A stretch of DNA of 64,000 nucleotides from Ancylobacter crimeensis (GTDB lineage Bacteria > Pseudomonadota > Alphaproteobacteria > Rhizobiales > Xanthobacteraceae), in the NCBI RefSeq assembly GCF_023016805.1, contig NZ_JALKCH010000005.1, forward strand, positions 1-64,000. The letters run 5' to 3'. Position numbers and translations under genes: made by a program. Below, piece after piece: positions 4,263 through 20,358 of this stretch. The notes under the pieces were generated by a model. That model searched no databases and was not told the origin of the DNA. It saw nothing but the letters and a program-made list of their open reading frames with translations. Numbering within the stretch: the first letter of the stretch is position 1; every line of letters starts with the position of its first letter.

Positions 4263-4345
4263 GGTAAGCCTCTGAAAATAAGCGGTATTCCTGCTCTGTT
4301 CTGATCGTGCGAAATGGCGGGCATATTCCCGAGATGGGCATTTCG

Positions 4346-4364
4346 TGGTGAGTATTTGGTGAGT
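4346..4364. promoter_or_regulatory. Candidate left integrase arm-type site
   Basis: TGGTGAGTATTTGGTGAGT contains two direct copies of TGGTGAGT and is identical to 20292-20310 at the other end of the element. Its place between attL and the integrase start, and the matched copy near attR, fit accessory arm sites bound by the N-terminal domain of tyrosine integrases. No binding is shown. Confidence 0.65.
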
Positions 4365-4389
4365 TTTTCCGCAAGGCAAAGGTTGCCAC

Positions 4390-5637
4390 GTGCCCAGGCT
4401 CACCAAGTCCATGGTCGATGCCGCCGTACCAAGGGAGCGTCAGTTCACCCTCTGGTGCAGCGAGCTGCCTGGCTTCGGCGTCTATATCCATCCAACTGGC
4501 CGGCGGACCTATTTCGTCGATTACCGGAATGCTGATGGCGTCAGACGTCGAATGACGATCGGCCGGCACGGCAAGATCACGACGGAGGAGGCCCGCAGGC
4601 TCGCCATTGCCACCATGGGCGAGACGGTGCGAGGCGAAGATCCAGCGCTCGAACGGGCGACCCGCCGCAGCTCACTCACCGTCTCGGAGCTTTGCGACAA
4701 TTACATCGCTGCCGCCGAGAGGGGGCTGATCATGGGCAAGCGAGGGCGCGCAAAGAAAGCGACCACGCTCTATGTCGATCGCGGCAGGATTGCCGCTCAC
4801 GTCAAGCCGTTACTGGGCAAGAAGCTGGTCCGTGACGTGTCAAAGGCGGACATCGCCAAATTCATCCGCGACGTTGCGGCCGGAAAGACCGCCGCGGATC
4901 GGAAGACTGGAAAGGCACGTAGCAGGATCATCGTGGAGGGAGGTGCCGGTACGGCTGCCAGGACGGCCGGCCTGCTCGGCGGCATCCTCAGCTATGCCGT
5001 TTCGGATGGCGTGATCGACACCAATCCCGCAACGGGCGTGAAGCGCCCGGCCGACAAGCGAAGAGAGCGACGGCTGACGCCGGCGGAGTACGGCAAGCTG
5101 GGCGAGGCGCTGCGCCAAGCCGCCAGCGAGACGGAGATCGAGCAGGTCCTCGCGGGTGTGAATCTACTCGCGCTGACGGGCTGCCGCATTGGTGAGATTG
5201 CCAAGCTCAAATGGTCCGAGGTCGACGAGGCCGGACAATGCCTGCGGTTGGAGGATACGAAGGAAGGTGCCAGCGTGCGGCCTGCCGGTCGTGCTGTATT
5301 CGACCTGCTGGCGACCATCACAAGACGGCCGGGCTGCCCCTACGTGCTGCCGGCGGCGCGCGGCGGTTCGGAGTTCTATGGCGCCCTGCCGGCGGGCCTC
5401 GCCCGCATCGTCAAAAGAACGGGACTCTCTAGCGTCACGGCTCACACCCTCAGGCACAGCTATGCCTCCACCGCTGGCGACCTGGGGTTCTCGGAAAGTA
5501 CCATCGCCGCGCTGCTCGGCCATGCCGCCGGGACCGTTACCAGCCGATATGTCCACCATCTCGATAGTGTCCTGGTCGCCGCCGCCGACAGGGTGACTGA
5601 CGCCATTCTCGCGCACATGGCGCGCGCGGGAGAGTGA
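4390..5637 (+). CDS. int: Tyrosine-type site-specific integrase
   Basis: A 415-residue integrase with a GTG start. Residues 1-90 form the DUF4102-like arm-binding domain (MPRLTKSMVDAAVP, then YFVDYRNADGVRRRMTIGRH), about 100-200 the core-binding SAM-like domain, and 230-400 the catalytic domain. Catalytic residues are visible in order: Arg in TGCRIGEI, Lys in EDTKEG, His-x-x-Arg in HTLRHSYAS, His in LLGHAAGTVT and Tyr in SRYVHH. All are present, so the protein looks functional. It lies 174 bases inside attL and transcribes into the element. It should recombine the tRNA-Arg core repeats to insert and, with an AlpA-like helper, excise the element. Confidence 0.95.
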   Translation: MPRLTKSMVDAAVPRERQFTLWCSELPGFGVYIHPTGRRTYFVDYRNADGVRRRMTIGRHGKITTEEARRLAIATMGETVRGEDPALERATRRSSLTVSELCDNYIAAAERGLIMGKRGRAKKATTLYVDRGRIAAHVKPLLGKKLVRDVSKADIAKFIRDVAAGKTAADRKTGKARSRIIVEGGAGTAARTAGLLGGILSYAVSDGVIDTNPATGVKRPADKRRERRLTPAEYGKLGEALRQAASETEIEQVLAGVNLLALTGCRIGEIAKLKWSEVDEAGQCLRLEDTKEGASVRPAGRAVFDLLATITRRPGCPYVLPAARGGSEFYGALPAGLARIVKRTGLSSVTAHTLRHSYASTAGDLGFSESTIAALLGHAAGTVTSRYVHHLDSVLVAAADRVTDAILAHMARAGE

Positions 5638-5641
5638 TTTT

Positions 5642-5777
5642 CGTTCTCAGCTACATCGTTTTCGCGGGGAACACGGGGAACACGGGGAACAATGCTGGTA
5701 AGTCCTGTAATATCAATGTGTTAGCTTGTTCCCCAGCTTGTTCCCCGCGTGGGGAACAGTCGGGGAACAAGGGGAAC
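5642..5777. repeat. Left GGGGAAC/GTTCCCC iteron-like cluster
   Basis: Eight perfect copies of GGGGAAC in 136 bases just after the integrase. Plus-orientation copies start at 5666, 5675, 5684, 5751, 5762 and 5771, and inverted copies at 5728 and 5740. Spacings of 9 and 11-12 bases recur. Positions 5642-5690 match 15243-15291 in inverted orientation at 45 of 49 bases. No convincing gene occupies this stretch, so the repetition is a DNA-level feature. It may be a replication-protein binding site. Confidence 0.85.
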
Positions 5778-5860
5778 AGAGTGTGATTGGGGTTCGCCAA
5801 AAATGGCTGCTGTGCGAAAGTGGACGTGCAACGTCGGATATTCGACCGGAGGTGGTTTCT

Positions 5861-6124
5861 GTGCGCGATCAAGATTTCGATCCTGCGAGCTTTCTTGCAA
5901 GACATGCAGAGCACCAGACAACGATCTGGGATAATCCCCCGAGTGACGGCAAAGTCCATTGGGTTGGAAGCTGCCTCTACCCCTCTTTATCAGAAGCTAT
6001 TGAAGCTATGTGTAGGGCAGGCAATGGTGCGCCCATGCAAATGGTCGTTCATGCAAAACCTGATCGCTTTCTTGAGCGAGCCGAGATTAATGCCCTATGC
6101 GAGCATGTGATCAGCGGCACATAG
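5861..6124 (+). CDS. Hypothetical protein, 87 residues
   Basis: A small soluble protein I do not recognise. The GTG start at 5861 was chosen because GGAGGTGG lies six bases before it; the frame is also open upstream through the heptamer cluster, but that part looks like translated repeat DNA. Visible features are an acidic start (RDQDFDPASFLARH), an aromatic centre (WDNPPSDGKVHWVGSCLYPS) and a C-terminal helix with PDRFLERAEINALCEHV. It lies between the repeat cluster and the terminase scrap. Base composition is less GC-rich than the chromosome. It could be element-specific. Confidence 0.5.
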   Translation: MRDQDFDPASFLARHAEHQTTIWDNPPSDGKVHWVGSCLYPSLSEAIEAMCRAGNGAPMQMVVHAKPDRFLERAEINALCEHVISGT

Positions 6125-6129
6125 CCCGT

Positions 6130-6345
6130 AACATGCTGAACGACCTGCTCGAAGATGGGCTGCCGGCGGTCGAGATGCGGCAGGGCTGGGTAACGATGGC
6201 GCCGGCCATCAAGGAGCTGGAGCGCGCCATTATCGGGCGGCGATCCTGTGGGCGGCTGGACAGGTCAGAAAGCCCCGGCCGGGCGACACGGCGCGCGAGA
6301 TCGTCGAGGGCGCGGCGGCATAGTCAAAACAAATGCACGCCTTAG
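6130..6345 (+). pseudogene. Phage terminase large subunit, C-terminal scrap
   Basis: The segment LEDGLPAVEMRQGWVTMAPA followed by IKELERAIIGRR is typical of the nuclease half of phage large terminases. Only about 40 residues survive; at about 6243 the similarity stops and the frame continues as low-complexity Arg-rich sequence. In another frame 6238-6324 reads VRKPRPGDTAREIVEGAAA, possibly the end of a second lost phage gene that I cannot name. This shows that packaging genes once belonged to the element or to a neighbour and were deleted. Confidence 0.65.
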
Positions 6346-6399
6346 TGTAATGAAGTCGTAAATTGTTTTGAATCGAATATTATAGGCAAAAATATCGCG

Positions 6400-7068
6400 T
6401 CACGTGCCATTATTTTCTTCCGCGGGTATTGACGTCAGCTGCTCAATAAAAAGCCGTTTAATAAAATCATTCATAGGTCTTAAGTCTGCACTTCCAGTCT
6501 CGGAAAATGTTGAATCCGCCTCACGTAATGCAGCTTCGAATTCTGGTTTGTTACTCATTATAAGGTCTATAACAGTCGGCGTCCCCGGAATCATGACGCC
6601 AATTTTTAGACAAAGACAAGCATACGCAAACGCTCTAGCTGCGCGTCCATTGCCGTTCACAAACGGATGTATCCAATTTATTCGCCAAAGACACCAAGCA
6701 GCTATAGCAATGGCGTCCGCTTTTTCCCACATGACGGTCAAATCAGCCTCAAACGACGCCATATGACCTTCAACTTCGCTGCACGTGGGAGGCTGATGCA
6801 CTATGGTTCCATCTGGTCGACCGACTCGCACCTCAATTCCCCGGTACTCACCCGGATTTATCAGGAGAAAGAGGGTCCCAGCATGATGAAGCGCCTTAAG
6901 TGCCCGTGCATTCGGTGGAGCGCGACAGCCATTTTCGGGATGAGACCCAAAAAGGGCCGTCAGTAACCGAAAAAGCGCCTCGATGACATTTACCTGATTC
7001 GCGAAATTCAGGAACTCGATGTGGTGAGCCGCGGGACCGTTGACCAATTCCCAATTATCGTCGCGCAT
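6400..7068 (-). CDS. Fic domain protein (Fic/Doc family, likely AMP-transferase toxin)
   Basis: A 222-residue Fic protein. Residues 134-145, HPFVNGNGRAAR, match the catalytic HPFxxGNGRxxR exactly, with His134 as general base. A beta-hairpin flap (GTIVHQPP, about 87-94) precedes it as usual. Fic enzymes transfer AMP or other nucleotides to target proteins. I see no clear internal S/TxxxE(G/N) inhibitory helix, so inhibition may come from the small gene upstream. The start at 7068 has only a weak ribosome site and lies 13 bases after a terminator hairpin. The gene is AT-richer than its neighbours, a sign of transfer. Confidence 0.88.
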   Translation of the reverse strand: MRDDNWELVNGPAAHHIEFLNFANQVNVIEALFRLLTALFGSHPENGCRAPPNARALKALHHAGTLFLLINPGEYRGIEVRVGRPDGTIVHQPPTCSEVEGHMASFEADLTVMWEKADAIAIAAWCLWRINWIHPFVNGNGRAARAFAYACLCLKIGVMIPGTPTVIDLIMSNKPEFEAALREADSTFSETGSADLRPMNDFIKRLFIEQLTSIPAEENNGT

Positions 7069-7080
7069 GCTCGACTCACG

Positions 7081-7104
7081 AAAAAGAACCCGGAAAAACC
7101 GGGT
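7081..7104 (-). terminator. Intrinsic terminator between the small partner gene and fic
   Basis: On the minus strand ACCCGG, a TTTTT loop and CCGGGT form a six-pair hairpin followed by TTCTTTTT. It lies after the 66-residue gene and immediately before the fic start. It should greatly reduce transcription into fic and so favour the upstream product over the toxin. Confidence 0.75.
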
Positions 7105-7139
7105 CCTTACGTAACATCCGAACTACTTTAAATACAATC

Positions 7140-7340
7140 CTATCGCTTCCCGGTCACTGCCGTGGAATGGCCTTCGTGCTCGTCGAGAAGCTCCTCGACC
7201 TGCTCACGGGTAAGGGAGGAATTCTTATCCTTCAGCCCCATAATGAGGCTCACGCGCTGCATGCGGCGCTCATTGGGAGTCATCTTGTGAGCACGAGCTC
7301 GTGCAACAAGATCCTCCAAAGTTGGGGTGCGAGCCAACAT
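7140..7340 (-). CDS. Small protein upstream of fic, candidate Fic antitoxin
   Basis: A 66-residue, charged, mostly helical protein (MLARTPTLEDLVARARAHKM, then TPNERRMQRVSLIMGLKD and a closing acidic helix). Short proteins with a similar MTPxERRxQRVS pattern commonly precede fic genes in Hyphomicrobiales, as far as I recall. The two-gene order, small gene then fic, resembles VbhA/VbhT-like and FicA/Fic modules. The canonical inhibitory motif S/TxxxE(G/N) is not exact here: the nearest match is SLIMGL, with Gly in place of Glu. The antitoxin role is therefore inference from position and size. Confidence 0.6.
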   Translation of the reverse strand: MLARTPTLEDLVARARAHKMTPNERRMQRVSLIMGLKDKNSSLTREQVEELLDEHEGHSTAVTGKR

Positions 7341-7542
7341 TCATACCTCCTCCGAAAACAAGGAAACCCTTGATTAAGCCTCATCACAACGAACGACGAA
7401 GCTCTATGGTTTCGAAGGCGGCCGTGGGCAAAACAAACATAGGGCGATTTGGCAATCCGTTCAATCGGAATTGCATGTCCGCCTTTTTGCATAGCTGAGC
7501 ATTTCCGCTATGCGCGCTTGTCCCGTAAGCTCCGTCTGTTCC

Positions 7543-7749
7543 TTACAAATTATCCAACGTGTAGCGGCTTTCCGGTTCTTCCGCGCCTTCGGCGATCACG
7601 GCATCAATCGCTTCGATCGCGAGCTGGATATGGGCGACCGTCACGATGCCGTCATCATGGTGATCGCTTCCGATCCGATATGCCTCTTTCCGGCGGCGCT
7701 CCACGAGATTGGCGCGCAGGTTCTTCAAATCCTCAATCGTCTTCGTCAT
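7543..7749 (-). CDS. Conserved small hypothetical protein, 68 residues
   Basis: A helical, charged protein starting MTKTIEDLKNLRANLVERRR with a second helix AHIQLAIEAIDAVIAE. Similar short proteins occur on alphaproteobacterial genomic islands without known function. No signal or membrane segment is visible. The start codon overlaps the tail of a frameshifted XRE relic on the same strand, mirroring the layout at 11658-12145, where a small gene overlaps the stop of an intact XRE gene. It may have been the partner of that lost regulator. Confidence 0.6.
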   Translation of the reverse strand: MTKTIEDLKNLRANLVERRRKEAYRIGSDHHDDGIVTVAHIQLAIEAIDAVIAEGAEEPESRYTLDNL

Positions 7750-7850
7750 CAGCGTTCCTTCCTCAACCTCACCCCCGGCCCCTCGCCGTCTCTGACACGA
7801 ATATCACGCCGGCAGTCGCCAGCACGGGGCGTCGCATCGAAGGAGTGCCT
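7749..7850 (-). pseudogene. XRE regulator tail with a one-base deletion
   Basis: One frame reads VLATAGVIFVSE and the next reads GEGPGVRLRKER to the stop. Together they form the C-terminal signature of small XRE regulators, intact at 11909-12145. A missing A in the expected GAGAACGGC explains the shift. The helix-turn-helix part is absent. Thirty bases (7758-7787) are identical to 11919-11948, so this is a degraded paralogue or recombination remnant. Confidence 0.65.
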
Positions 7851-7941
7851 TGGCTGTGTGAACTGCCCGTCCAACGGATAGAGATCATTGAAGGATGCTT
7901 CCCGCCCGGTATGCTTTGCCCAGGGTGCCTTTGGGGGTGGG

Positions 7942-10503
7942 ATGTCGTATCGACAAATTATTGCTGCGGTCCTTGCCGCGGCTGTGTTGGGCAGTGGTCT
8001 GGCGCGCGCCCGAGCAGAAGACTTCACGCCTCCGCGTAACAAGCAATGGGTGATGCTCGCCAGCACTCAGGATCTCGACACAGCAATAGGGATTGCTCGA
8101 TCCTATCGAGGCCAAGCCCGCGTCGTTAAGGCCAGGAACGGCTGGTATGCGGTCGCGCTAGAGCCGCACGCCGGAACAATGGAAACCATCCGCAAGGCGG
8201 TCGACTGGCCGCCTCTGCCTGCCGACGCCATGCTCTCCCAGGGCACAGGCTATATTGAGACGGTCTGGCGCTATTCCGAAGTGCCGCAGGTGACCGCAAA
8301 GGTAGGGAAGGATAAGCCCGGCACCGCGCGGATGGCCGGCCTCGAAGTTACCCTCACCCGCGAGCCGGCGCAGGAAGGCTGGACCGCCCATCTCATCGGC
8401 AGAAACGCTTCTGGCGTGTTGTTCGACCTAAGGCAGCGATTCGAGACGGCGGCGGACTACGATTCGTCGCTCAGCATCCTCGAGCTGGACCGCTCCAACG
8501 GCACACCGGAAGTCGTCTTCGATTCCTTCTCGGGAGGCGCCCATTGCTGCACGACGATGGTCGCCGTCACGCGCATCCCCGGCGGCGAATGGAAGCTGGT
8601 TCCTCTCGGAACCATTGATGGCGAGGGAATGAGTTTCGAGGATGTCGACAACGACGGCACGGCCGAGATCGTGCGAGGCGATAACCGCTTTCTCTATACG
8701 TTCGATTCCTATGCCGGGTCGATGCAGCCCGTTCTCATCGAGAGGCTGAACGGCACCCGCGTCGAGGATGTGACGACGCAGCCTGCCTTCCGCAGCCGGA
8801 TCGTGCAGGACGTAAGGTGGATGGAATTCCTTGCCAAATCGGAGCCGAAGCTGTGGCGGTCAAACGGCTTCCTTGCTGCCTGGGTCGCAGCGAAGACCCG
8901 CATAGGCGAGGGTGTGGAAGCGTGGCAGCGCATGCTGCCACTCTATGATCGCTCTACTGATTTCGGCATCTCGGTCTGCACCACGGCCAAGCCGCTGACG
9001 GACTGTCCGTCAAGCGAGCAACGGCAACTGTCTTTTCCTGAAGGGCTTCGGCGTTTCATGGCGGAAGCCGGCTATGGCAACGGACCGATTGGCGATGATG
9101 CAGGCCGCGCGGCGCTGGCACCGACCTCGCTCAAGGATGCCCGTGCGGCCTTTCTGGCCCTCCCGGTCGAGCGCCGCCGCGATATCCAATTGCTCCTGGC
9201 GACGCTCGGACACTGGCCGGCGGTCGCCAATGACAGTTTCGGGCCGAAGCTGTTCGATGCGATCCGCGCTTTTCAGGCGTCGGTTGGAAGGGAGGCAACG
9301 GGCGTGATGACGTCCGATGATTATAATACGCTGCTGACAGCGGCGTCGCCCGTGCTTCGCATGTGGGGCTTGGAGCGCGTGCGCCATCCCGCCGGGAATG
9401 CAACGCTGTGGGTCCCACAGGGTCTCGGTCTCGAGCGGAGGGTTGAGGATGGGGATCTGATCCTCAAATCAGCGCACTACAATGTAACCGTATTGTTCTT
9501 CCAGATGGTCGGCGTCTCGCTTGCCGGCGGACACGCTTCGATGCTCGCCCGACTTGGCGCTGATGGGCATGTGATCGACTATTCCCTATTGAAACCGCAG
9601 TTCTTCGCCATCAGCAGCCATCGCGATGGCATGTCGGTCTACAGCCGATTCCAAGCGATCGCCGGTGGGATCGTGGGCTTCTCGCTCGTTTGGCCGTCCG
9701 ACTCGGATGCACATGGTGAGCGGCTATCGACGGTAATGTCCGATCTCTTCCGGGCGGAGAACGAACTGCAGCAGCGCCGCTCGCCGCCTGCACCTATCGT
9801 TGAGATAGTCCATGCGCCCGCCGCAGCGCCCGAACCCGGCACAGCCCCATCGTCCCGCCGTTCAGATCCTGCACCGACCGATGCCGCCGTGTCCGGTTCA
9901 GGATTTTTCATCGCTGCCGACAGCCTCCTCACGAATGCACATGTGGTGAAGGGTTGCACAGACGTCGCTGTCTCGGTCAGTGGACGCACGTCGCCCGGCC
10001 GCGTCGCAAAGCGGGATGCGGTGAATGACCTTGCACTTGTCGAGACATCGGCGCGCAGCGTCACCACCGCACGCCTTCGCCTGGGCGTACGCTTGGGCGA
10101 GGATGTCGCCGTGTTCGGTTATCCGCTCAGTGGCCTGCTCGCGAGCTCAGGCAACTTTACCAAGGGCACGGTAACGGCGACCGCGGGCATGGGTGACGAT
10201 ACCCGCCGTCTTCAGATTTCCGCGCCGGTTCAGCCCGGCAACAGCGGAGGGCCATTGCTCGACGAGTCCGGGAACGTGGTCGGAGTTGTCGTCGCGAAGA
10301 TCAACGCCGTAGCGGTGGCAGCCGCGACCGATGATATTCCACAGAACGTGAACTTCGCGATCAAGAGCGCAATCGCAGCCAGCTTCCTTGAGTCCAATGG
10401 CGTATCGTACCAATCGGGCTCCCTTGGCGAGGCGTTGAAGCCGGCCGACCTCGCGGAGAAGGCTCAATCCTTCTCAGCCTTCATTGAGTGCACGCCGAAT
10501 TGA
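7942..10503 (+). CDS. Secreted modular trypsin-like serine protease with peptidoglycan-binding domain
   Basis: An 853-residue exported protein. Residues 1-27 are a Sec signal peptide (QIIAAVLAAAVLGSGLARA). About 30-85 look SPOR-like, about 140-260 carry a beta-propeller-like part with DVDNDGTAEIV, and about 410-475 match peptidoglycan-binding type 1 (FGPKLFDAIRAFQASVGREA). Residues about 650-810 form a trypsin-like domain with His667 (NAHVV), Asp696 (NDLAL) and Ser768 (GNSGGP), so the triad is complete. The start at 7942 follows GGGGGTGGG and begins the signal peptide; an upstream ATG at 7888 would bury it. It is cargo in the mobile element, probably acting at the cell envelope. Its target is unknown. 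Confidence 0.85.
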   Translation: MSYRQIIAAVLAAAVLGSGLARARAEDFTPPRNKQWVMLASTQDLDTAIGIARSYRGQARVVKARNGWYAVALEPHAGTMETIRKAVDWPPLPADAMLSQGTGYIETVWRYSEVPQVTAKVGKDKPGTARMAGLEVTLTREPAQEGWTAHLIGRNASGVLFDLRQRFETAADYDSSLSILELDRSNGTPEVVFDSFSGGAHCCTTMVAVTRIPGGEWKLVPLGTIDGEGMSFEDVDNDGTAEIVRGDNRFLYTFDSYAGSMQPVLIERLNGTRVEDVTTQPAFRSRIVQDVRWMEFLAKSEPKLWRSNGFLAAWVAAKTRIGEGVEAWQRMLPLYDRSTDFGISVCTTAKPLTDCPSSEQRQLSFPEGLRRFMAEAGYGNGPIGDDAGRAALAPTSLKDARAAFLALPVERRRDIQLLLATLGHWPAVANDSFGPKLFDAIRAFQASVGREATGVMTSDDYNTLLTAASPVLRMWGLERVRHPAGNATLWVPQGLGLERRVEDGDLILKSAHYNVTVLFFQMVGVSLAGGHASMLARLGADGHVIDYSLLKPQFFAISSHRDGMSVYSRFQAIAGGIVGFSLVWPSDSDAHGERLSTVMSDLFRAENELQQRRSPPAPIVEIVHAPAAAPEPGTAPSSRRSDPAPTDAAVSGSGFFIAADSLLTNAHVVKGCTDVAVSVSGRTSPGRVAKRDAVNDLALVETSARSVTTARLRLGVRLGEDVAVFGYPLSGLLASSGNFTKGTVTATAGMGDDTRRLQISAPVQPGNSGGPLLDESGNVVGVVVAKINAVAVAAATDDIPQNVNFAIKSAIAASFLESNGVSYQSGSLGEALKPADLAEKAQSFSAFIECTPN

Positions 10504-10715
10504 TGCTTTGCGGCCAGCGCCTACCGTATCTGTCGGAAACCGACAGATGGATAAATCCTCCCGCCCCCGCCTCGTCGAGCGCAACGGCACGGTCTACGAG
10601 CAGAACACCGCCCGCATTGGCGGCGCGCCGCGTCTCTCCGCATCCGAACTCGCGGAGGCCCGCGCGCTTCGGAGTGTGGAGCGAGCCGACCCGCAAGGCA
10701 AGACAAGACGCAGGA

Positions 10716-11000
10716 TCAGATACCCAGCGCCTTGCGCAGCGCCTCATTCATCCGCACCTGCCATCCTGGCCCGCCGGAACGCAGCGCGGACAGCACGTCA
10801 GGATCGAGGCGCACCGACACCTGTTCCTTGGGCTTGTCGATCTTCGGCCGGCCCCTGCCTCGGGTGAGCGTACCCTGCGCCGGGCGCAGCACCTTGCCGC
10901 CTTCCGCCAGCTCGGCGCGGTCGAGCTGATCTTCCGTCCATTCCGGAGCGTCGTCGGGGTCAACCCAGACGGGGGAGGACTTTGCGGGCTTCCTTGTCAT
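10716..11000 (-). CDS. brnA: BrnA antitoxin
   Basis: A 94-residue antitoxin of the BrnT/BrnA type II module. The C-terminus KEQVSVRLDPDVLSALRS continuing to MNEALRKAL is the ribbon-helix-helix DNA-binding fold of BrnA; the N-terminal half is the acidic toxin-binding part (DPDDAPEWTEDQLDRAE). The gene overlaps the end of brnT by 41 bases, the usual toxin-first order. BrnA neutralises BrnT and represses the shared promoter, where matching inverted repeats are visible at 11235-11284. It probably stabilises the element. Confidence 0.92.
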   Translation of the reverse strand: MTRKPAKSSPVWVDPDDAPEWTEDQLDRAELAEGGKVLRPAQGTLTRGRGRPKIDKPKEQVSVRLDPDVLSALRSGGPGWQVRMNEALRKALGI

Positions 11001-11235
11001 GGCAATGCCTCATGCTGATGACGTGGCGACCTTCGCCGCGTGGGGTCCAAACGATCATCACCAGCCGGTCGCGCACGATGCCGTAGGACTGGAAGCGATC
11101 CTCGCCATAGTCGAAACGGTCGTCGCGCTGCGTCAGGGTGCGGCCCGCGAAGGCAATGGCGCTATCGGCCTCAAGATCGAGCCCGCGTTCCCGCAGGGTC
11201 GTCTCGCGCTTCGTGGGGTCGCTGGTGATCTTCAT
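10960..11235 (-). CDS. brnT: BrnT toxin
   Basis: A 91-residue RelE-like ribonuclease of the BrnT family, length typical. Visible family marks are the start-proximal KRETTLRERGLDLEADSA, FDYGEDRFQSYG and the closing RHVISMRHCHDKEARKV, which holds the conserved Arg and basic catalytic residues. It is translated first and brnA overlaps its 3' end. BrnT inhibits translation by RNA cleavage until bound by BrnA. The promoter region contains the direct and inverted GTATCACA elements described separately. Confidence 0.92.
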   Translation of the reverse strand: MKITSDPTKRETTLRERGLDLEADSAIAFAGRTLTQRDDRFDYGEDRFQSYGIVRDRLVMIVWTPRGEGRHVISMRHCHDKEARKVLPRLG

Positions 11236-11284
11236 GTGATTATGTGTATCACAGAAAATCAGGGACGCAATAACCGTATCACAA
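11235..11284. promoter_or_regulatory. brnT promoter region with BrnA-like operators
   Basis: TGTGAT (11235-11240) and ATCACA (11248-11253) form an inverted repeat with a seven-base spacer, and GTATCACA recurs at 11277-11284. They lie immediately upstream of brnT, where BrnA-type ribbon-helix-helix repressors bind. The spacing of about three helical turns between right half-sites would allow cooperative binding. Confidence 0.55.
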
Positions 11285-11394
11285 AAATAATGTACGCGCG
11301 TTCGCTTCCCCGCTGCCGCCTGCAGTAAAGTCTGCCGGCTGACGGGTACGGATGAGTGGACGGCAGCGCATTAGGAAGAAGGGTTCAAGGTTGG

Positions 11395-11580
11395 TTAAGT
11401 TGTTTTGGCTCCGACATCTTCCCGCGCTCTAGGGCGGGGTGAATAGGGGAGGCCTAACCGCTCCGCTATTCCCTTGACTTGCTCAAAGGTTTTGTCAGAG
11501 CAAACCTGTTTCAATCCCTTATTGTTATGGTGGCGTCGCTTTTTGGCGCCGTTCGGATGCCGGGCAGGATCAAATCTCAT
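11395..11580 (-). CDS. Small basic hypothetical protein
   Basis: A 61-residue basic reading frame (MRFDPARHPNGAKKRRHHNN, then a helix FEQVKGIAERLGL). I do not recognise a family. The frame opens further upstream, but that part is translated from the XRE remnant, so the ATG at 11580 is taken. It could be a nucleic-acid-binding protein by composition, or a chance frame. It lies between brnT and the XRE operon, same direction as both. Confidence 0.35.
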   Translation of the reverse strand: MRFDPARHPNGAKKRRHHNNKGLKQVCSDKTFEQVKGIAERLGLPYSPRPRAREDVGAKTT

Positions 11581-11662
11581 GAAGGCGACCATTCCCTCTT
11601 GGGAGCCGCACCCCGGCACCGCAGCCATTCTCCGCGATGAATTCGACGCCTGCAACTTCAGG
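11570..11662 (-). pseudogene. Second XRE regulator C-terminal fragment
   Basis: The minus strand reads EVAGVEFIAENGCGAGVRLP to a stop at 11570. This is again the LEAAGVxFxxENGxGxGVRL tail of small XRE regulators, without the helix-turn-helix. It directly follows the 84-residue gene. The sequence differs clearly from the other two tails, so it derives from another family member rather than a recent copy. Confidence 0.55.
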
Positions 11663-11912
11663 CTTCGACGATACGCAGACTTCCGGGTGAGATGAGCGAC
11701 CCGCGCTTGCCTCTCGCATGCATCCAGAGAGAGTGACCCCGGCGGATCAACGCTGCGGCTTCTTCCAACGTCTTCACATAGACGGCGAATTCTGCGTGGT
11801 GCTTGCGCCGGCCGTAGAGTGGATCGCCCAGTTTATATCCGCGCGGCGTCAGCAACGGCTCTTCGACCACGCCCGGGCGTGGCTGGGTTCTTTCAATCCG
11901 GAGGATGCTCAT
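11658..11912 (-). CDS. Hypothetical protein, 84 residues, coupled to the XRE gene
   Basis: A small basic protein beginning MSILRIERTQPRPGVVEEPL, with KHHAEFAVYVKTLEEAAALIR in the middle and SLWMHARGKRGSLISP near the end. I recall similar island-borne proteins next to XRE regulators in Hyphomicrobiales but no function. Its ATG overlaps the XRE stop by four bases, so it is translationally coupled and probably autoregulated with it. No membrane or export signal is seen. Confidence 0.65.
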   Translation of the reverse strand: MSILRIERTQPRPGVVEEPLLTPRGYKLGDPLYGRRKHHAEFAVYVKTLEEAAALIRRGHSLWMHARGKRGSLISPGSLRIVEA

Positions 11913-12145
11913 ACTCTCTTCCTCAACCTCACCCCCGGCCCCTCGCCATTCTCCGAGACGAAGATGATGCCGGCAGATTCAAGGGCGCGGCCGATTGCTT
12001 CCATCGCCTCCGCCGAAGCGGCTGGCTTGCCGGAGCCCTCAGCGCGCTTGAGCGTCATGGTGGAGATGCCGGCGGCCGTCGCCACCTCCTGTTGAGAGAG
12101 CCCTAGCAATGCCCGCGCTGCTCTCAATTGTTCCGAAGAGAACAT
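11909..12145 (-). CDS. XRE family helix-turn-helix repressor
   Basis: A 78-residue Cro/CI-type regulator. The helix-turn-helix covers residues about 5-40 (EQLRAARALLGLSQQEVATA, then ISTMTLKRAEG), followed by the characteristic tail SAGIIFVSENGEGPGVRLRK. The ATG at 12145 was chosen over 12172 because MFSSEQLRAARALLG matches the usual start and the upstream codon falls within the inverted repeat. The gene is divergent from the acidic-protein/TOPRIM operon, with a dyad between them. It is the best candidate for the element's repressor. Confidence 0.85.
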   Translation of the reverse strand: MFSSEQLRAARALLGLSQQEVATAAGISTMTLKRAEGSGKPAASAEAMEAIGRALESAGIIFVSENGEGPGVRLRKRV

Positions 12146-12160
12146 ATCTATTGATCCATT

Positions 12161-12182
12161 TAGAACAGTCATCTATGTTCTA
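12161..12182. promoter_or_regulatory. Divergent operator dyad
   Basis: TAGAACA, eight bases, then TGTTCTA form a perfect 7-bp inverted repeat between the divergent XRE gene and the acidic-protein gene. Its size and position match operators of phage-type XRE repressors. Repression in both directions is inferred. Confidence 0.6.
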
Positions 12183-12213
12183 ATTGTATCATCTCTATCA
12201 CAGGAGCACGCCC

Positions 12214-12720
12214 ATGGGCACCCATGCCGGCGAACGGGAAAACTATGTCCGCAGCTTCACCATGGTGGAGCAGGCGGCCTTGAGGAGACAGGCGGAGGCG
12301 ACAATTGAGGCGCTGCTGGACCTGCTGAATGAACTGGACGGTCCTGACAATGACGACGAGCCCGGCACATGGCCGGAGGCCGAATGGGTCCGCGCCAGCG
12401 ACGCCCTGCCGGACGAGAACTGCGAGGCCAATGGCGATGAACTGGATGCCTCGGCACCGGAGGGGTGGCGGGCCGTTCGGCTTGCCTGCCTGCACGAGGA
12501 CGCAGAGGAAGACGATGCGCCGGAGGATGACGACCCGCGCGAGAACACGTCGCTCGAGACTTACGGAATGGGCTTCGTTCGGTCCGGCCCTGATGACGCC
12601 GAGGACACTCATGACGCGGAGTGGGACACCTCGGACTATGAGCCCAGTCTCGGCTGGTGCGCCCATGAGCGCGGCATCTCCTACAACGGCACCGACGACC
12701 TCGAAGCGGGGTGGCTGTGA
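12214..12720 (+). CDS. Acidic hypothetical protein, first gene of the replication operon
   Basis: A 168-residue, strongly acidic protein. An N-terminal helix (ERENYVRSFTMVEQAALRRQ, then ATIEALLDLLNELDG) leads into long Asp/Glu-rich tracts and the motif YEPSLGWCAHERGISYNGT. Similar acidic proteins with EPSLG...RGIS stretches are common on Hyphomicrobiales phage islands, with no function known to me. The start follows CAGGAG by eight bases. It is the first gene rightward of the XRE operator, and the next ORF overlaps its stop. The acidity suggests a DNA-mimic or protein-binding role, which is speculation. Confidence 0.7.
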   Translation: MGTHAGERENYVRSFTMVEQAALRRQAEATIEALLDLLNELDGPDNDDEPGTWPEAEWVRASDALPDENCEANGDELDASAPEGWRAVRLACLHEDAEEDDAPEDDDPRENTSLETYGMGFVRSGPDDAEDTHDAEWDTSDYEPSLGWCAHERGISYNGTDDLEAGWL

Positions 12721-12896
12721 TGGCGAGCGCCAGCGATTCCTTCCGCCACGCGGTCGCGGAGTTCGAGCCGCGCATCGCCGATATGGTGTTGATGGCGAGT
12801 ATCGCCTCCACGCTGATCGGTGACGCATTGGAGTTCGCGGATCCTGTCGCGCCCCGAGGACATGGTGCTGATCACGGAGGGCGAGAAATCGCGTGA
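12720..12896 (+). pseudogene. Short coupled frame ending in a deletion junction
   Basis: A 58-codon frame whose ATG overlaps the previous stop (TGATG). The first 38 residues (SDSFRHAVAEFEPRIADMVL, then MASIASTLIGDALE) look like real helical protein. The rest is the wrong-frame reading of the TOPRIM gene below. I read this as a small gene or lost N-terminus joined by a deletion to the interior of the TOPRIM-DUF927 gene. It could alternatively be a genuine short protein. Confidence 0.4.
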
Positions 12897-13740
12897 CGCT
12901 GCGGCGGTGCTGTTCCCCGACATGGTGGTGACGACGCCGGCACATGGCGCCAAGAGCCCGCATTTGACCGATTTCGCCCCGCTCGCCGGCCGTGTCGTGG
13001 TGATCGCCATCGACAATGACGGGGCCGGGCAGCAATTCGGCGACAAGGTGTGCGATCTGGTGCGCACGGCCGGCGCGGATGCCGTCCTGCACCTCCCTCC
13101 CGATCGGCTGGGAGCATGGCGTTGGCAGGACGGCGAGAAGCTGTTGCGTGACGAGCCGCTGCCGGAGGGCTGGGACCTTGCCGACGCGCTGGAAGAAGGC
13201 TGGACCGCCGAGGCGGTGGCGGCGCTCTACAGCGATCCGGCGTTCCTGCCGCCCTATCGCGATGCCGAGGAGCGCGAGACGCTGCGCCGTCGCGAGGCCG
13301 GCGAACCGGAGGAAACCACCCGCTGGCCCTTCCGGCTGGCAGCGAACGGTGTCGAGAAGCGCATCGAGCGGGCGGACAAGGAAACCGGCATGATCACCGT
13401 CGAATGGCGGTGGTTCTGCTCCCTGCTCGATGTGGCAGCGGAAACCCGCAGCTCGGACGGCGAAGAATGGGGGCGGTTGCTCGTCGTCACCGATCGCGAC
13501 AGGCGCACCAAGGAATGGGCGATGCCCATGGCGATGCTTGCCGGTGACGGCACCGCCTATCGCGAGCGCCTCCTCTCCCTTGGCCTCGTCATGGCGCCGG
13601 GCAAGTTCGCCCGCGATGCCCTGCACGAATACATCTCGACCGCCCGCCCCGAGGTGAAGGCCCGCTGCGTGGGCCGGGTCGGCTGGCACGTCCGCTCCTT
13701 CACCCTGAGCACCCTCACAGTGGAGCCGGCCCATGGCTGA
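12820..13740 (+). CDS. TOPRIM and partial DUF927 protein (N-terminal part of a split primase/helicase-type gene)
   Basis: A 306-residue product, GTG start at 12820 or ATG at 12862. Residues about 14-110 are a TOPRIM fold with the acidic motif VLITEGEKS and the metal site AIDNDGAGQQ, as in phage primases. Residues about 165-300 match the beginning of DUF927 (RWPFRLAANGVEKRI to VGRVGWH). TOPRIM starts almost at the N-terminus, whereas relatives carry a zinc finger and more sequence before it, so the 5' part appears deleted. The frame stops at 13740, in the middle of DUF927, and resumes in the next gene. Function is probably lost or reduced. Confidence 0.75.
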   Translation: MTHWSSRILSRPEDMVLITEGEKSRDAAAVLFPDMVVTTPAHGAKSPHLTDFAPLAGRVVVIAIDNDGAGQQFGDKVCDLVRTAGADAVLHLPPDRLGAWRWQDGEKLLRDEPLPEGWDLADALEEGWTAEAVAALYSDPAFLPPYRDAEERETLRRREAGEPEETTRWPFRLAANGVEKRIERADKETGMITVEWRWFCSLLDVAAETRSSDGEEWGRLLVVTDRDRRTKEWAMPMAMLAGDGTAYRERLLSLGLVMAPGKFARDALHEYISTARPEVKARCVGRVGWHVRSFTLSTLTVEPAHG

Positions 13741-15097
13741 ACGCATCATCCTGCAGACCAATGGCGCGGTCGACCACGCCATGCGCAATGCCGGCACCCT
13801 TGAGGGATGGAAAGAGCATGTCGCCCGCTATGCTGTCGGCAATTCCCGGCTGGTGCTGGCGCTCTCGACCGCCTTTGCCGCCCCGCTGCTCTATCCGACA
13901 GGAGCCGAGAGCGGTGGCTTCCATTTCCGCGGCGCGTCCTCGACCGGCAAGAGCACGGCACTTGTAGTCGCCGGCTCGGCTTGGGGCGGTGGCGGCATCC
14001 GGGGCTATGTGCGCACCTGGCGCGCCACCTCGAACGGGATCGAGGGCATCGCCAGCATGCATTGCGACTGCCTGCTCTGCCTCGACGAGATGGGGCAGGT
14101 GGACGGGCGCGAGGCCGGGCAGATCGCCTATATGCTGGCGAATGGGGTCGGTAAGGCGCGCGCCAGCCGCACGGGTGAGGCCCGGCCGGCGGCGGAGTGG
14201 CGGCTGCTGTTCCTGTCGAGCGGCGAACTGAGCCTTGCCGACAAGATCGCGGAGGATGGCCGGGGCCGGAAGGCGGCGGCAGGCCAGCAGGTGCGCATCG
14301 TGGACATTCCCGCCGATGCCGGGGCCGGGATGGGCCTGTTCGAGAACCTGCACGGCTTTCCTTCGGCCGATGCCTTTGCCCGGCACCTCAAGATGGCGGC
14401 CGGCGAGCATTACGGGCACGCCAGCATCGCCTTCCTGCGCACGCTGGTCGACAATTTCGATGCCATCGCACCGAACGTCAAAGCCTATGTAGATGAGTTC
14501 CTCGAAGAGAATTGCCCGACCGATGCCGACGGGCAGGTGAGCCGCGTGGCGGCCCGCTTCGGCCTTGTCGCCGCCGCAGGGGAGATGGCGACGCTCGCCG
14601 ATGTTCTGCCCTGGGAGCCGGGCGAGGCGACACGGGCGGCGGCGCGCTGCTTCCGGGACTGGCTTGCCATGCGCGGTGGCGTGGAGCCTGCGGAGGAAAG
14701 CGAGGGGATCGCCACGGTGCGCCGGTTCATCGAACTGCACGGCACCTCGCGTTTCGAGGCCATGGGCGATCTGGCACCGAAAGACGGTTTCGGCGGCCCG
14801 GTCGAGCAGCGCATCAGCAATCGCGTCGGCTTCCGCCGCCGTGCCGATGGTGGGGGCATCGAATATCTCGTGTTGCCGGAGGCATGGCGCACTGAGGTGT
14901 GTGCCGGCCTCGATGCGGCGGCGGTGGCGCGCACGCTGGCCCGGCGCGGCTATCTCGCCACCGACAGCGAGGGCAAGCCCCAGGTGAAGACCCGCCTGCC
15001 GGGCTTCGCCAATGCGGTGCGCTGCTACGTCATCCCGGCGGACATCCTGGGCGAGGCGGAGCCCGCGCCTGTAGCGGCCGGCGGGCCCTTGTTCTGA
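13733..15097 (+). CDS. DUF927 ATPase/helicase-like protein (C-terminal part of the split gene)
   Basis: A 454-residue protein holding the ATPase core of DUF927. Residues about 60-75 carry a Walker A-like FRGASSTGKSTALV, about 115-125 the Walker B-like CLLCLDEMGQV, and LLFLSSGELSLADKI follows. The first residues (AERIILQTNGAVDHAMRNAG) are normally internal to the family, directly after the VGRVGWHxRSF stretch that ends the previous gene. Removing one T at about 13736 would fuse the two frames. Either a frameshift split one gene or the eight-base overlap ATGGCTGA now couples two polypeptides. The role is replication of the element in both cases. Confidence 0.8.
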   Translation: MAERIILQTNGAVDHAMRNAGTLEGWKEHVARYAVGNSRLVLALSTAFAAPLLYPTGAESGGFHFRGASSTGKSTALVVAGSAWGGGGIRGYVRTWRATSNGIEGIASMHCDCLLCLDEMGQVDGREAGQIAYMLANGVGKARASRTGEARPAAEWRLLFLSSGELSLADKIAEDGRGRKAAAGQQVRIVDIPADAGAGMGLFENLHGFPSADAFARHLKMAAGEHYGHASIAFLRTLVDNFDAIAPNVKAYVDEFLEENCPTDADGQVSRVAARFGLVAAAGEMATLADVLPWEPGEATRAAARCFRDWLAMRGGVEPAEESEGIATVRRFIELHGTSRFEAMGDLAPKDGFGGPVEQRISNRVGFRRRADGGGIEYLVLPEAWRTEVCAGLDAAAVARTLARRGYLATDSEGKPQVKTRLPGFANAVRCYVIPADILGEAEPAPVAAGGPLF

Positions 15098-15107
15098 GGA
15101 GATGCCC

Positions 15108-15581
15108 ATGCCGGACCTCAGCCGCTTCGCCATCTTCGCCAGCAAGAGCCGGCCTGTTCCCCTTGTTCCCCAGCCCGTGGAACGCCGGGGAACAAAAGGT
15201 GAAACAGGAAAAGCCATTGTAAATCATACACTTGGATATTCCGTTCCCCGTGTTCCCCACGTTCCCCGGCAAAACGATGTAGCTGAGAACGCATCGCGGT
15301 CGGCTGGTGTTGTTCCCCGTGTTCCCCACGCCCCGGAAGGCTGGGGAACAAGTCGGGGAACAGCACAAAGCGTTGAGGATAAAGGGTTTGTGGGCATTGT
15401 TCCCTCTGTTCCCCTTGTTCCCCGCGAAAACGATGATGGCGGAAACGAAAATGAGTGGCGGTACGCCTACGACGAGCGTGCCGGCATCCTCGAATATGAC
15501 GAAGGCCTGCCACGGGCGGAGGCCGAGCGGCTGGCTGCCGAACAGATCGCCCATTCCCGATTCCTCGCGCGTGAAAGGTGA
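15108..15581 (+). CDS. VPxVP-repeat protein encoded across the right heptamer cluster
   Basis: A 157-residue protein with repeated VPLVP, VPRVPHVP, VPRVPHAP and VPSVPLVP blocks. They are encoded by GTTCCCC units at 9-base steps and separated by linkers rich in Asn, Gly and Glu. The C-terminus (EWRYAYDERAGILEYDEGLP, then RAEAERLAAEQIAHSRFL) is a normal helical segment. The start at 15108 follows GAGGAG; the stop is four bases before the next gene. Similar Val-Pro-rich proteins occur beside DUF927 genes on other islands, as far as I recall. Whether the repeats serve the protein, the DNA or both is open. Confidence 0.6.
   Translation: MPDLSRFAIFASKSRPVPLVPQPVERRGTKGETGKAIVNHTLGYSVPRVPHVPRQNDVAENASRSAGVVPRVPHAPEGWGTSRGTAQSVEDKGFVGIVPSVPLVPRENDDGGNENEWRYAYDERAGILEYDEGLPRAEAERLAAEQIAHSRFLARER
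15156..15423. repeat. Right GTTCCCC/GGGGAAC iteron-like cluster
   Basis: Twelve perfect heptamers. GTTCCCC starts at 15156, 15165, 15243, 15252, 15261, 15312, 15321, 15408 and 15417; GGGGAAC at 15187, 15343 and 15355; a variant GTTCCCT is at 15399. Steps of 9 and 12 bases recur. The module at 15243-15291 is a 45/49 inverted match to 5642-5690, and GTTCCCCGCGAAAACGATG is exact at 15417-15435 and in the left cluster. The cluster lies inside a reading frame but shares its non-coding flanks with the left copy. Confidence 0.85.
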
Positions 15582-15584
15582 GCC

Positions 15585-15776
15585 ATGTCCGACCGCGTCC
15601 TTCGCACCATGAAAGTCATCGCCAAGCGCCTCGGCGTCTCGTCCGCCACTGTGTGGCGCTACGCTGCCTATGAAGGCCTGCCTGTCTTCAAGATGGCGTC
15701 GGGTCCGACGTCGCCGCTCTGTATTCGGGAGAGTGATCTCGACGCTTGGCTGAAAAGCAGGTCGGAATGTAAATGA
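15585..15776 (+). CDS. AlpA/excisionase-like helix-turn-helix protein 1
   Basis: A 63-residue DNA-binding protein of the MerR/AlpA-like winged-helix type (VIAKRLGVSSATVWRYAAYE, then SDLDAWLKS). Proteins of this size act as excisionases or transcription activators of integrases on satellites and islands. It starts four bases after the VPxVP gene and probably belongs to the same operon as the DUF927 genes. It may direct the integrase toward excision. No key residue appears to be missing. Confidence 0.75.
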   Translation: MSDRVLRTMKVIAKRLGVSSATVWRYAAYEGLPVFKMASGPTSPLCIRESDLDAWLKSRSECK

Positions 15777-15865
15777 CCTGAAATGCAAGAAGTATTCGAT
15801 TTCTGATCTGATCCTATATTAAACGAACTGAGCTATAACTGTCTGAGCTATTCAACTGACCGTCC

Positions 15866-16126
15866 ATGAACAAGGACACAGGGCTCACGATGGTCAAGAT
15901 CGTTTCTGACGGTGATGTACTCTATGGGGCATCTGCCATTGCCGAGTTTCTCGGCCTCCCTCCCAAGCACATCTACTACCGGGTGAGCGTCGGCGACCTG
16001 CCGACGTTCCGCCTTGGCGCCATCATCTGCGCCCGCCGCTCCACCCTGCACGCATGGATGGCTCAGCAAGAGGGGACCGTCGGCACCGACCATTCGCGGG
16101 CCGGGATGATGGAGCCGAGAGGATGA
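15866..16126 (+). CDS. AlpA/excisionase-like helix-turn-helix protein 2
   Basis: An 86-residue protein with VLYGASAIAEFLGLPPKHIY, then YRVSVGDLPTFRLGAIICAR and STLHAWM, the DNA-binding fold shared with AlpA and terminase-small-subunit-like proteins. Position before a ClpP-like gene leaves both roles possible: regulator or DNA-recognition subunit of packaging. It follows an AT-rich 89-base gap that may hold a promoter. Its stop overlaps the next ATG by four bases. Confidence 0.7.
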   Translation: MNKDTGLTMVKIVSDGDVLYGASAIAEFLGLPPKHIYYRVSVGDLPTFRLGAIICARRSTLHAWMAQQEGTVGTDHSRAGMMEPRG

Positions 16127-16362
16127 CGGACAAGCAGGATAGCCGTAGGCACGGCTGCAAAAGACCGTCGCAAGGCGATCGGCTTTCTCTATCGATTTCA
16201 AAAGAAAATTGCTCCAAAGATAATTCAGAAGAAAGTTCCTTTCGTTCGGGTCCTTCCCGGCTACCCCCGGCCATGGGTGTTTCGGAGGCTCGGGACATCC
16301 CTAGCGATAAAATTTTCCTATGGGGTAATGATAATATTCGGCGGACCGGCCCATGCAGGTAG
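16123..16362 (+). CDS. Hypothetical protein, 79 residues, overlapped at both ends
   Basis: A basic, Ser-rich reading frame (MTDKQDSRRHGCKRPSQGDR, then SISKENCSKDNSEESSFRSG) of unknown family. Its ATG overlaps the previous stop as ATGA and its end overlaps the ClpP-like start by ten bases, an arrangement typical of packed phage operons. The stretch is less GC-rich than its neighbours. I see no domain, so it could also be a chance frame bridging two genes. Confidence 0.35.
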   Translation: MTDKQDSRRHGCKRPSQGDRLSLSISKENCSKDNSEESSFRSGPSRLPPAMGVSEARDIPSDKIFLWGNDNIRRTGPCR

Positions 16363-16976
16363 CCGCCCAAAAACTCGTTGCCGACGGGGCCTTGTGGCTC
16401 TGGGGGGCGATCGGGACGACCGATCCCTATTGGCCGATGATCCGCGCCGCAGATGTAGAGGCGGCGCTCGCCGAGATGGCCGGGCCGGTGGTGGTTCGAC
16501 TGAACAGCGGCGGCGGATCCCTCGGCGAGGGTCTGAAGATCTGGGCCTTGCTCGCGCAACATCCGGCGACGGTGACCATCATCATCGACCGGCTTGCTGC
16601 ATCGGCCGCTTCCATCATCGCCATGGCCGGTGATCACGTCGTGATGCGGGCCGGGGCGGAGATGATGATCCACCGGCCCCGGCAGGTCTCCATGACGTCC
16701 GACAAGGCGCTTCAGCTCATTGCGGCCGGTGTCGCCTATCGCGCCGATGCCTGCGCCAGCATGGCCCTGGACATCGTGGCGATCTACGCCGCGCGGACTG
16801 GCCTGCACTCGGAGACGATCGAGCAACTCCTCGATGCGGCTGCGGTCATGTCCGGTCGTGAGGCCGTTCGTCTCGGCTTCGCGGACGAGGCTGACGTCCT
16901 CGCGTGGCAGCCATCCAGCCTCCTGCCTCATCAAGCCCTCTGTGCCGGTACGGCGCTTCATGGAGAGATCTCATGA
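16353..16976 (+). CDS. ClpP-like phage head maturation protease
   Basis: A 207-residue serine protease of the S14 (ClpP-like) group used by phages to mature capsids. VVVRLNSGGGSLGEGLKIW forms the oxyanion region, Ser84 lies in LAASAAS and His107 in MMIHRPR, as expected for the catalytic pair. In intact phages this gene precedes or is fused to the scaffold and major capsid genes. Here a tail-assembly chaperone follows with a four-base overlap, so portal and capsid genes are missing on both sides. Its substrate may no longer be encoded in the element. Confidence 0.85.
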   Translation: MQVAAQKLVADGALWLWGAIGTTDPYWPMIRAADVEAALAEMAGPVVVRLNSGGGSLGEGLKIWALLAQHPATVTIIIDRLAASAASIIAMAGDHVVMRAGAEMMIHRPRQVSMTSDKALQLIAAGVAYRADACASMALDIVAIYAARTGLHSETIEQLLDAAAVMSGREAVRLGFADEADVLAWQPSSLLPHQALCAGTALHGEIS

Positions 16977-19232: not shown

Positions 19233-19290
19233 CGACAAGCGCAGGCACCACGCAATCTGCCAACTCCTGCACCCTCCAATGGAGACGACG

Positions 19291-20238: not shown

Positions 20239-20264
20239 CCATCCTGCCGGACCGACAGCTTCAG

Positions 20265-20310: not shown

Positions 20311-20358
20311 AGCTTCACTCGGGCAGAGGTGTCTGAGCAGCTAAGTATTTGAAATAAT

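Follow-up and report, generated by a model that had tools for sequence, protein, structure and literature searches.

In satellite phage P4, two separate sites, ori and crr, act together in replication. The DNA considered here is the first 64,000 nucleotides of contig NZ_JALKCH010000005.1 from Ancylobacter crimeensis (assembly GCF_023016805.1), a stretch which as a whole is referred to as 'the window'. Within the window is an integrative element for which a first-pass annotation had proposed a bipartite, 'P4-like' replication origin, i.e., two clusters of the heptamer GGGGAAC (or, inverted, GTTCCCC), along with a DUF927-type gene supplying the matching replication protein. As far as layout is concerned, the comparison with P4 stands, but the initiator is of the family of the Rep of Staphylococcus aureus pathogenicity islands (SaPIs) and the Cch of staphylococcal cassette chromosome mec (SCCmec), not of the P4 alpha family. 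The best reading, as judged from sequence comparison, is that this would be an origin of the type possessed by SaPIs and other phage-inducible chromosomal islands (PICIs), one which has been split into facing half-origins, with a layout like that of P4 and an initiator of a different family.

The P4 record (NC_001609) has six type 1 repeats in ori, which is 4.7 kb from crr. The latter consists of two 120-bp direct repeats, with five type 1 repeats each, located directly 3' of the initiator gene, alpha. P4 and the element thereby both have two separated iteron regions, with the second cis region, kilobases away, found in tandem repeats by the initiator gene; that is, crr is doubled directly 3' of alpha as is the window's right site 3' of its own helicase gene. 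The pattern of ori, +++-++ in the GGTGAACA orientation, is also that of many DUF927 half-origins. This is a resemblance of layout rather than a claim of descent. P4 differs in a number of ways, however. The annotation was correct as to the repeats, in that GGTGAACA is among those of ori and crr; it is a single base away from GGGGAACA, and it is the latter which is the repeat of the window. P4's ori and crr also differ from each other in layout, and its ori faces the opposite way relative to the initiator gene. Alpha, furthermore, is made up of Zn_Ribbon_Prim, Toprim_3, D5_N, DUF5906 and Pox_D5 domains and has no DUF927 match, a makeup found neither in the window's primase/helicase pieces nor in a relative designated L024. 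It is on this domain content that the P4 alpha family was rejected as the identity of the initiator.

Closer in terms of initiator are SaPIs and PICIs. The DUF927 protein Cch and SaPIbov1 Rep are relatives, and SaPI Rep employs its C-terminal domain to read iterons located directly 3' of its own gene (PMC7581432). Published PICI origins are single sites, with two iteron sets flanking one AT-rich region, and a PICI rep-ori clone is kept as a plasmid in E. coli but is lost without rep (PMC6092414). The element resembles these in its DUF927-type, MCM-like initiator helicase (as in SaPIbov1), its iterons directly 3' of rep, its iteron sets around AT-rich DNA, its integrase with attachment sites, its AlpA/excisionase-like gene, and its captured late genes, as PICIs too carry late genes (PMC10111431). 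It differs in that there is not a single site but instead facing half-origins, the left one behind the integrase gene (int); in that the right site is doubled and lies within a reading frame; and in that its primase/helicase is divided by a cut within the DUF927 region.

A further comparison is with the PICI-like elements (PLEs), which are Vibrio satellites. There the C-terminal end of the RepA initiator and the origin vary together, with a phage nuclease that cuts origin iterons proposed as a selective force (PMC8263062). That co-variation is similar to what is described below for DUF927 elements, in which iteron 'word' and initiator 'wing' vary. PLEs nevertheless have a RepA_N initiator, three ~30-bp semi-palindromic iterons, and one origin (PMC8263062). 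No report of a split DUF927/PICI-type origin, nor of a word-wing relation, was found in the literature searched, which was mostly that accessible without subscription and so supplies weak evidence of absence.

Probable half-origin units and the DUF927 helicase

The two clusters are present as originally described, i.e., with eight exact copies of the heptamer at 5666-5777 and 12 at 15156-15423, for a total of 20. Over the 64-kb window there are 28 exact copies, versus a mean of 9.33 and a maximum of 17 in shuffles. Among the 6,912 canonical 7-mers present, GGGGAAC also forms the densest cluster, 12 in 290 bp, followed by its own one-base shift, GGGAACA, at 11 and then by the next word at 7. 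An inverted match noted earlier, of 5642-5690 to 15243-15291, likewise is real (45/49 positions, 92%), and an additional inverted pair consists of 5637-5746 and 15343-15452 (75%). The latter pair is in keeping with a right cluster that consists of the left unit twice over, in tandem. Set side by side, the clusters indeed are three copies of one ~110-bp unit (left, R1, and R2), and it is this unit, iterons around an AT-rich gap, for which I use here the term 'half-origin'.

Each unit starts with an outer flank containing CATCGTTTT. That flank is followed by three iterons at 9-bp steps, one of which carries a mismatch in R2, by the AT-rich gap, by one or two inverted iterons, and then by two or three direct iterons. 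One half-origin is found just 3' of the integrase gene, with 29 bases from the last int base to the first iteron. The other two, in tandem and inverted, are found just 3' of the DUF927 helicase gene, the right cluster beginning 59 bp past that gene's end. Half-origins at 5642-5777 and at 15156-15446 are 9.4 kb apart, with an AT-rich gap in each.

The right cluster is adjoined by what had been described as a 'DUF927/TOPRIM gene'. The adjacency is correct, but rather than being a single gene this is two overlapping open reading frames (ORFs), 12820-13740 and 13733-15097, here the N and C pieces, which share 8 nt, ATGGCTGA (13733-13740). PF06048 (DUF927) matches the host genome at one place, in two pieces, with an E value in the window of 8.2e-56. 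Decay of the gene, as suspected from the frame change at ~13735, was rejected because the same ATGNNTGA overlap is seen in 25 of 123 loci, a count that includes the window and near-copies, and 21 of these 25 have GGAG 5-18 nt upstream versus 92 of 2375 background stretches (3.9%). The cut in the DUF927 region has the look of a conserved division of the protein into two chains. The primase/helicase is one open frame in L019, in L024, and in most distant relatives, and four further loci (L011, L014, L103, L109) match the DUF927 N part only, not the TOPRIM part. Residues 1-183 of L024 found no match in the element by tblastn, the region ahead of the N piece being 12184-12820.

The structure model of the C piece has a predicted local distance difference test (pLDDT) score of 92.5. 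By profile, this piece matches 5dgk, the SCCmec Cch helicase, at E 2.7e-17 and 8tch, which is SaPIbov1 Rep, at E 1.3e-16, with no others at E <= 1, and the best fold matches as found with Foldseek are to these same two structures (TMq 0.67 and 0.58-0.59, respectively). Both are from staphylococcal elements, and identity in the structural alignments is 19% to the former and 15% to the latter. The window's helicase belongs to the same type as SaPI Rep and SCCmec Cch.

Iteron arrays across DUF927 elements

Relatives were found by scanning with the C piece and its 10-row alignment. This yielded 123 loci, namely the window, 43 viral-contig loci (nine of which were already from the first scan), and 79 genome loci (from the best 80 of 88 matches). 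In the 121 loci with enough sequence, near-copies included, words of the form xGNNAC are present in at least six copies within the ~480 bp 3' of the gene in 73 loci, versus three for mirrored words; with at least four copies required, these numbers are 88 and 23. Clusters of at least five of one [GT]GNNAC word are found within 95 of the 123 loci, mostly directly downstream of the gene, which upholds the association with DUF927 that had been suggested. The word varies from element to element along with the protein, including GGGGAACA, GGTGGTACA, GGTGCTACA, GGTGTAACA, GGTGTTACA, GGGGTAACA, GGTGGAACA, and GGTGGCACA, with TGGGAACA, TGGCTACA or TGGGGACA in other clades. The SaPI record PT1028, from a staphylococcal satellite, has CGGGAACT repeats (core GGGAAC) 3' of its rep, and Pseudomonas phage phiAH14b carries GGGGAACA.

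These arrays come in compact and split forms. The compact array of Aeromonas, Bradyrhizobium, and others (e.g., ++-+++---+---) is ~240 bp long and directly 3' of the gene, with no second same-word array within the stretch fetched. The split form, seen in many alphaproteobacterial and viral-contig elements, is instead +++-++ upstream and --+--- just 3' of the gene. Given a strict oriented word, at least four copies, and 100 loci at <95% identity, 46 loci possess a cluster, and in 22 there are two that are separated by more than 2 kb. In all 22 the strongest pair has one shared word (permutation mean 4.2, maximum 11, of 5000), with 18 of the pairs convergent and a median span of 6.1 kb. Three of the 22 (L022, L034, L119) additionally hold different-word pairs, which for L034 are overlapping readings of one site and for L022 represent a true third array. 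A blind search, the top 8-mer being found independently for each side, has the two sides agreeing for 15 of the 20 loci, versus a mean of 3.3 and a maximum of 8 over 2000 shuffles. A locus's own downstream word is dense elsewhere in that locus (at least four per 300 bp), at a density equalled by no permuted word, for 25 of 121 loci, near-copies included.

The upstream array starts no more than 400 bp from the integrase stop in 26 of the 37 loci with an upstream cluster, and at 25-36 bp in 15 of those 26. Half-origins have two main lengths, with iteron offsets of ~0, 9, 18, 73, 96, 105 and ~0, 9, 18, 51, 74, 83, which differ by ~22 bp, i.e., about two helical turns. In 56 of 57 arrays (28 chosen loci) the largest gap is AT-richer than the array's own locus. 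Extra arrays are also seen 3' of the helicase gene, at +3418 in L022 and at +3368 and +6263 in L024. Four plasmid records were examined as well, of which L136 and L137 have arrays of the DUF927 family; L135 and L138 have no recognisable array of that family, with L135 possessing other repeats and its own repM. Plasmid pMNOD05 (L136), which is circular and 20.3 kb, combines DUF927 with two half-origins whose 1.9-kb separation spans the start of the record, and half-origins on a Skermanella plasmid are about 100 bp apart. Labelling of a tree of 100 rows (<95% identity) gave 26 bipartite, 27 compact, 22 other, and 25 without a cluster, but the rule employed mislabels some rows (it gives 'compact' for L021 and L102, which have right-side arrays only), and this labelling is the basis for no claim.

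Within the genus, 30 genomes were surveyed, that of the window included, with the mirrored word as control. The 9-bp-step pair GGGGAACNNGGGGAAC is found in 13 of the 30, the mirrored control giving one hit in one genome, and DUF927 is found in nine. All seven genomes with a strong DUF927 match (E < 1e-50; eight genes) have a GGGGAACNNGGGGAAC site 0.90-0.98 kb past the domain's end, which in the window is the end of the gene; two genomes with weak matches (E ~1e-14) have no linked site. In genomes G014, G026, and G028 there is a further site, 12-36 kb upstream and in convergent orientation. A single pair is not diagnostic as such pairs are present also in genomes without DUF927 (G008, G010, G012, G018, G024). 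As a separate matter, single GGGGAAC pairs with no linked DUF927 gene occur at G000:C23:201572-201587 and in G008, G010, G018, G023, G024, and G028. The GGGGAACGTGGGGAAC form of the single pair, which recurs in six genomes of the genus, is perhaps a chromosomal site.

Iteron word and the wing of the winged helix

Here 'winged helix' is the name given to a domain as read from the structure model of the C piece, in which residues 382-389 are a helix and 417-434 the strand pair of the C-terminal winged helix. The 25 columns which differ most between different-word and same-word pairs include 386-387, 417-420, 422, 429, and 431 of the C piece, while taking in also the tail of that piece, 440-454, and a handful of columns from the core, e.g., 123 and 16. 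Among 35 loci with core identity of at least 0.62 to the window, ten columns (386-388, 416-422) give the right word by nearest neighbour for 26, versus 14 for the 275-column helicase core and 18 for the C-terminus minus those ten. As the ten columns were first picked on the same data, a slid-window scan is fairer, and the best of 399 windows of equal shape is found at the wing columns (27/35). The residues PQ[VI] at 416-418 are present in eight of 11 GGGGAAC loci and in none of 64 others.

Two elements from Xanthobacter sp. NM-59, L022 and L024, are especially pertinent. Their C pieces have 47 differences, but beyond residue 312 these are solely 413, 416, 418, 419, 420, 424, and 427; that is, all differences within the last 142 alignment columns sit in the wing stretch, 412-434. 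The word at both main half-origins is GGTGTTACA in L022 versus GGGGAACA in L024. The word, in short, largely follows the C-terminal wing of the helicase.

The element, alternative readings and implications

A 49-bp direct repeat, whose right copy overlaps tRNA-Arg(ccg), implies an element of ~16.2 kb (~4167-20404). Its gene order, from the left, is integrase, left half-origin, cargo (Fic, trypsin-like, and small ORFs), and a helix-turn-helix (HTH) regulator, followed by the N piece, the C piece, the small ORF that holds R1 and R2, a pair of small HTH genes, late genes, and the right attachment repeat (attR). The head, tail, and tape measure genes, located between origin and attR, resemble late genes carried by PICIs. 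The only PHROG match to the small ORF's protein is weak and has no assigned function; four ORFs at 10716-11912, all of them small and on the minus strand, received no NCBIfam name; and a perfect 30-nt direct repeat, CTTCCTCAACCTCACCCCCGGCCCCTCGCC, occurs at 7758-7787 and 11918-11947. Features are collected in the table.

Features of the A. crimeensis element, in window coordinates
Feature	Position	Strand	Details
Left attachment repeat, 49 bp	4167-4215		98% direct repeat of 20356-20404
Candidate integrase arm-type repeat TTTGGTGAGT	4355-4364	+	others at 20290-20299, 20301-20310
Tyrosine integrase, Arm-DNA-bind_3 + Phage_integrase	4390-5637	+	Pfam; PHROG phrog_1
Left half-origin	5642-5777	+	outer flank 5642-5665; +++ 5666, 5675, 5684; AT-rich gap; -- 5728, 5740; +++ 5751, 5762, 5771
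N-terminal piece of split primase/helicase: partial TOPRIM + DUF927 positions 1-122	12820-13740	+	Pfam, tblastn
C-terminal piece, 454 aa: AAA+ (MCM-like) helicase + C-terminal winged helix	13733-15097	+	Pfam, model, Foldseek
Small ORF, 159 aa, linker encoded by right half-origins	15102-15581	+	ends alike in relatives: MPDLSRFA..., ...EERAAILEYDGG.SR.EAE...
Right half-origin R1	15156-15291	-	iterons 15156, 15165, 15187, 15243, 15252, 15261; outer flank 15268-15291
Right half-origin R2	15312-15446	-	iterons 15312, 15321, 15343, 15355, 15408, 15417 + one-mismatch copy; outer flank
AlpA/excisionase-like HTH protein	15585-15776	+	PHROG phrog_66, E 2.4e-7
Second small HTH protein	15866-16126	+	HTH_17 below cut-off; phrog_18541 6.4e-15
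Head maturation protease 16353-16976, tail protein 16904-17266, tape measure protein 17403-19232	16353-19232	+	PHROGs, NCBIfam
Right attachment repeat 20356-20404, overlapping tRNA-Arg(ccg) 20359-20435	20356-20435	-	

So far as sequence can speak to function, the proposal of a two-site origin with a cognate DUF927 initiator is supported, and the arrays very probably are origin sites of the element's own DUF927 helicase. Mechanistically, this satellite-like element would excise as a circle. Its iterons would be bound by the C-terminal winged helix of that helicase, with the wing hairpin (residues ~416-420 of the 13733-15097 product) helping to set which word is read. Helicase hexamers then would probably load on the half-origins, the DNA of the AT-rich gap would melt, and theta replication would start, with the two sites probably cooperating in the manner of P4's ori and crr. 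Toward the stronger view, that both sites must act together, I lean only slightly. More tentative is a joint reading in which facing half-origins each load one helicase ring, these having to meet or fire as a pair, and in which half-origin plus wing serves as an exchangeable specificity code. Changes in word could be driven by pressure from origin-cutting nucleases, as proposed for PLEs, or instead by incompatibility between co-resident elements.

A number of observations weigh against all of this. Splitting is dispensable to the DUF927 family, as many relatives have only a compact array in the stretches fetched; 28 of the 123 loci, some on truncated contigs, have no cluster of five or more; and in the blind search upstream and downstream words disagree in five of 20 loci (L111, L124, L128, L046, L047). 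The window's TOPRIM piece is without its N-terminus, such that this copy may be impaired. In terms of word and wing, the wing columns were first chosen on these data and four word readings were set by hand. Across all clades, wing, core, and rest of C-terminus are correct for 43, 28, and 34 of 71 loci, i.e., the wing for only 43. Three GGGGAAC loci are exceptions to PQ[VI], L034 and L110 have LQDR in common but different words, and the third array of L022, at +3.4 kb, bears the other element's word, GGGGAACA. A tree-based test of word/wing pairs, lastly, has five usable pairs on starred branches, too few for reaching 0.05, with averages of 3.9 (PQ) or 2.9 (PQ[VI]) in the same direction, 0.1 or 0.0 in the opposite, and the remainder showing no difference.

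Among alternatives, the one to be taken most seriously, though on balance doubtful, is that only the right array is the helicase-read origin, with the left array a secondary site for copy control, handcuffing/incompatibility, or int regulation. The compact array 3' of the gene, as the sole array in the fetched stretches of many relatives, is consistent with this, as are the window's two half-origins on the right versus one on the left and the closeness of upstream arrays to the int stop. Left and right half-origins nonetheless are alike in geometry, AT-rich gap, and word, and in L101/L026 and L114 no array adjoins the helicase gene, which is flanked by a convergent pair all the same. In addition, the compact array has the look of the two halves set next to each other, of which one alone would be only half. 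As this alternative is a variant of the preferred, split-origin reading, the degrees of confidence expressed here are not ones that sum to unity. Considerably less probable is that the arrays are partition (centromere-like) sites or else operators of some other DNA-binding protein of the element. Partition and regulation are roles that such iteron-like arrays, with both orientations present, are able to have. The association with DUF927 and the tracking of wing by word point to the helicase, however, and no partition family was found among the ten window ORFs scanned with Pfam.

That the arrays are integrase arm-type sites, for excision or integration, is very improbable even given an arm-binding domain in the integrase and, in those 26 of 37 loci, an array beside int. 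A different repeat, TTTGGTGAGT, has three exact copies in the window, all near the element's two ends, where arm sites would be expected (a one-mismatch copy is at 7074-7083). By position these are the better arm-site candidates. The word, moreover, follows the helicase's wing; the right array is 4.9 kb from attR; and plasmids L136 and L137 have their arrays after DUF927, with (incomplete) gene tables that list recombinases of other kinds and no integrase. It is on the TTTGGTGAGT repeats and the word-wing tracking that integrase arm sites were set aside. The right cluster does, as a correction to the annotation, fall inside the small ORF at 15102-15581, which raises the issue of whether it is simply coding repeats for a VPxVP protein, with the left cluster a decayed copy. 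All 12 right copies do keep one phase per orientation, nine inverted copies in one (VP) and three direct in another (GT), and the ORF's ends are alike in relatives. The left copies, by contrast, are spread over several phases. In relatives the corresponding place reads VTP, VPP, or CST/VAP (L118 in two phases, CST and VAP), with the array's layout retained. What relatives keep is the DNA layout, with the protein linker following the iterons. Coding alone was set aside on these grounds and is the least probable of the explanations raised.

Should the more tentative joint reading be true, then initiation would serve as a readout of whether the element as a whole is intact or circular. One half-origin would be written inside a protein gene, with amino acids following DNA, and a code, e.g., PQVK with GGGGAACA, LQDQ with GGTGGTACA, and LQNxQ with GGTGCTACA, would keep co-resident elements from firing one another's origins. 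The pairing of word and wing suggests how co-resident satellites may maintain separate replication identities, and such paired variation, over some ten words, is a natural set for working out the recognition rule. More broadly, SaPI/PICI Rep resemble MCM helicases and are thought to self-load, so how they choose and melt an origin bears on helicase loading generally. As natural origins built from the same module are compact, adjacent, or split by kilobases, whether two helicase rings must meet becomes something that is testable.

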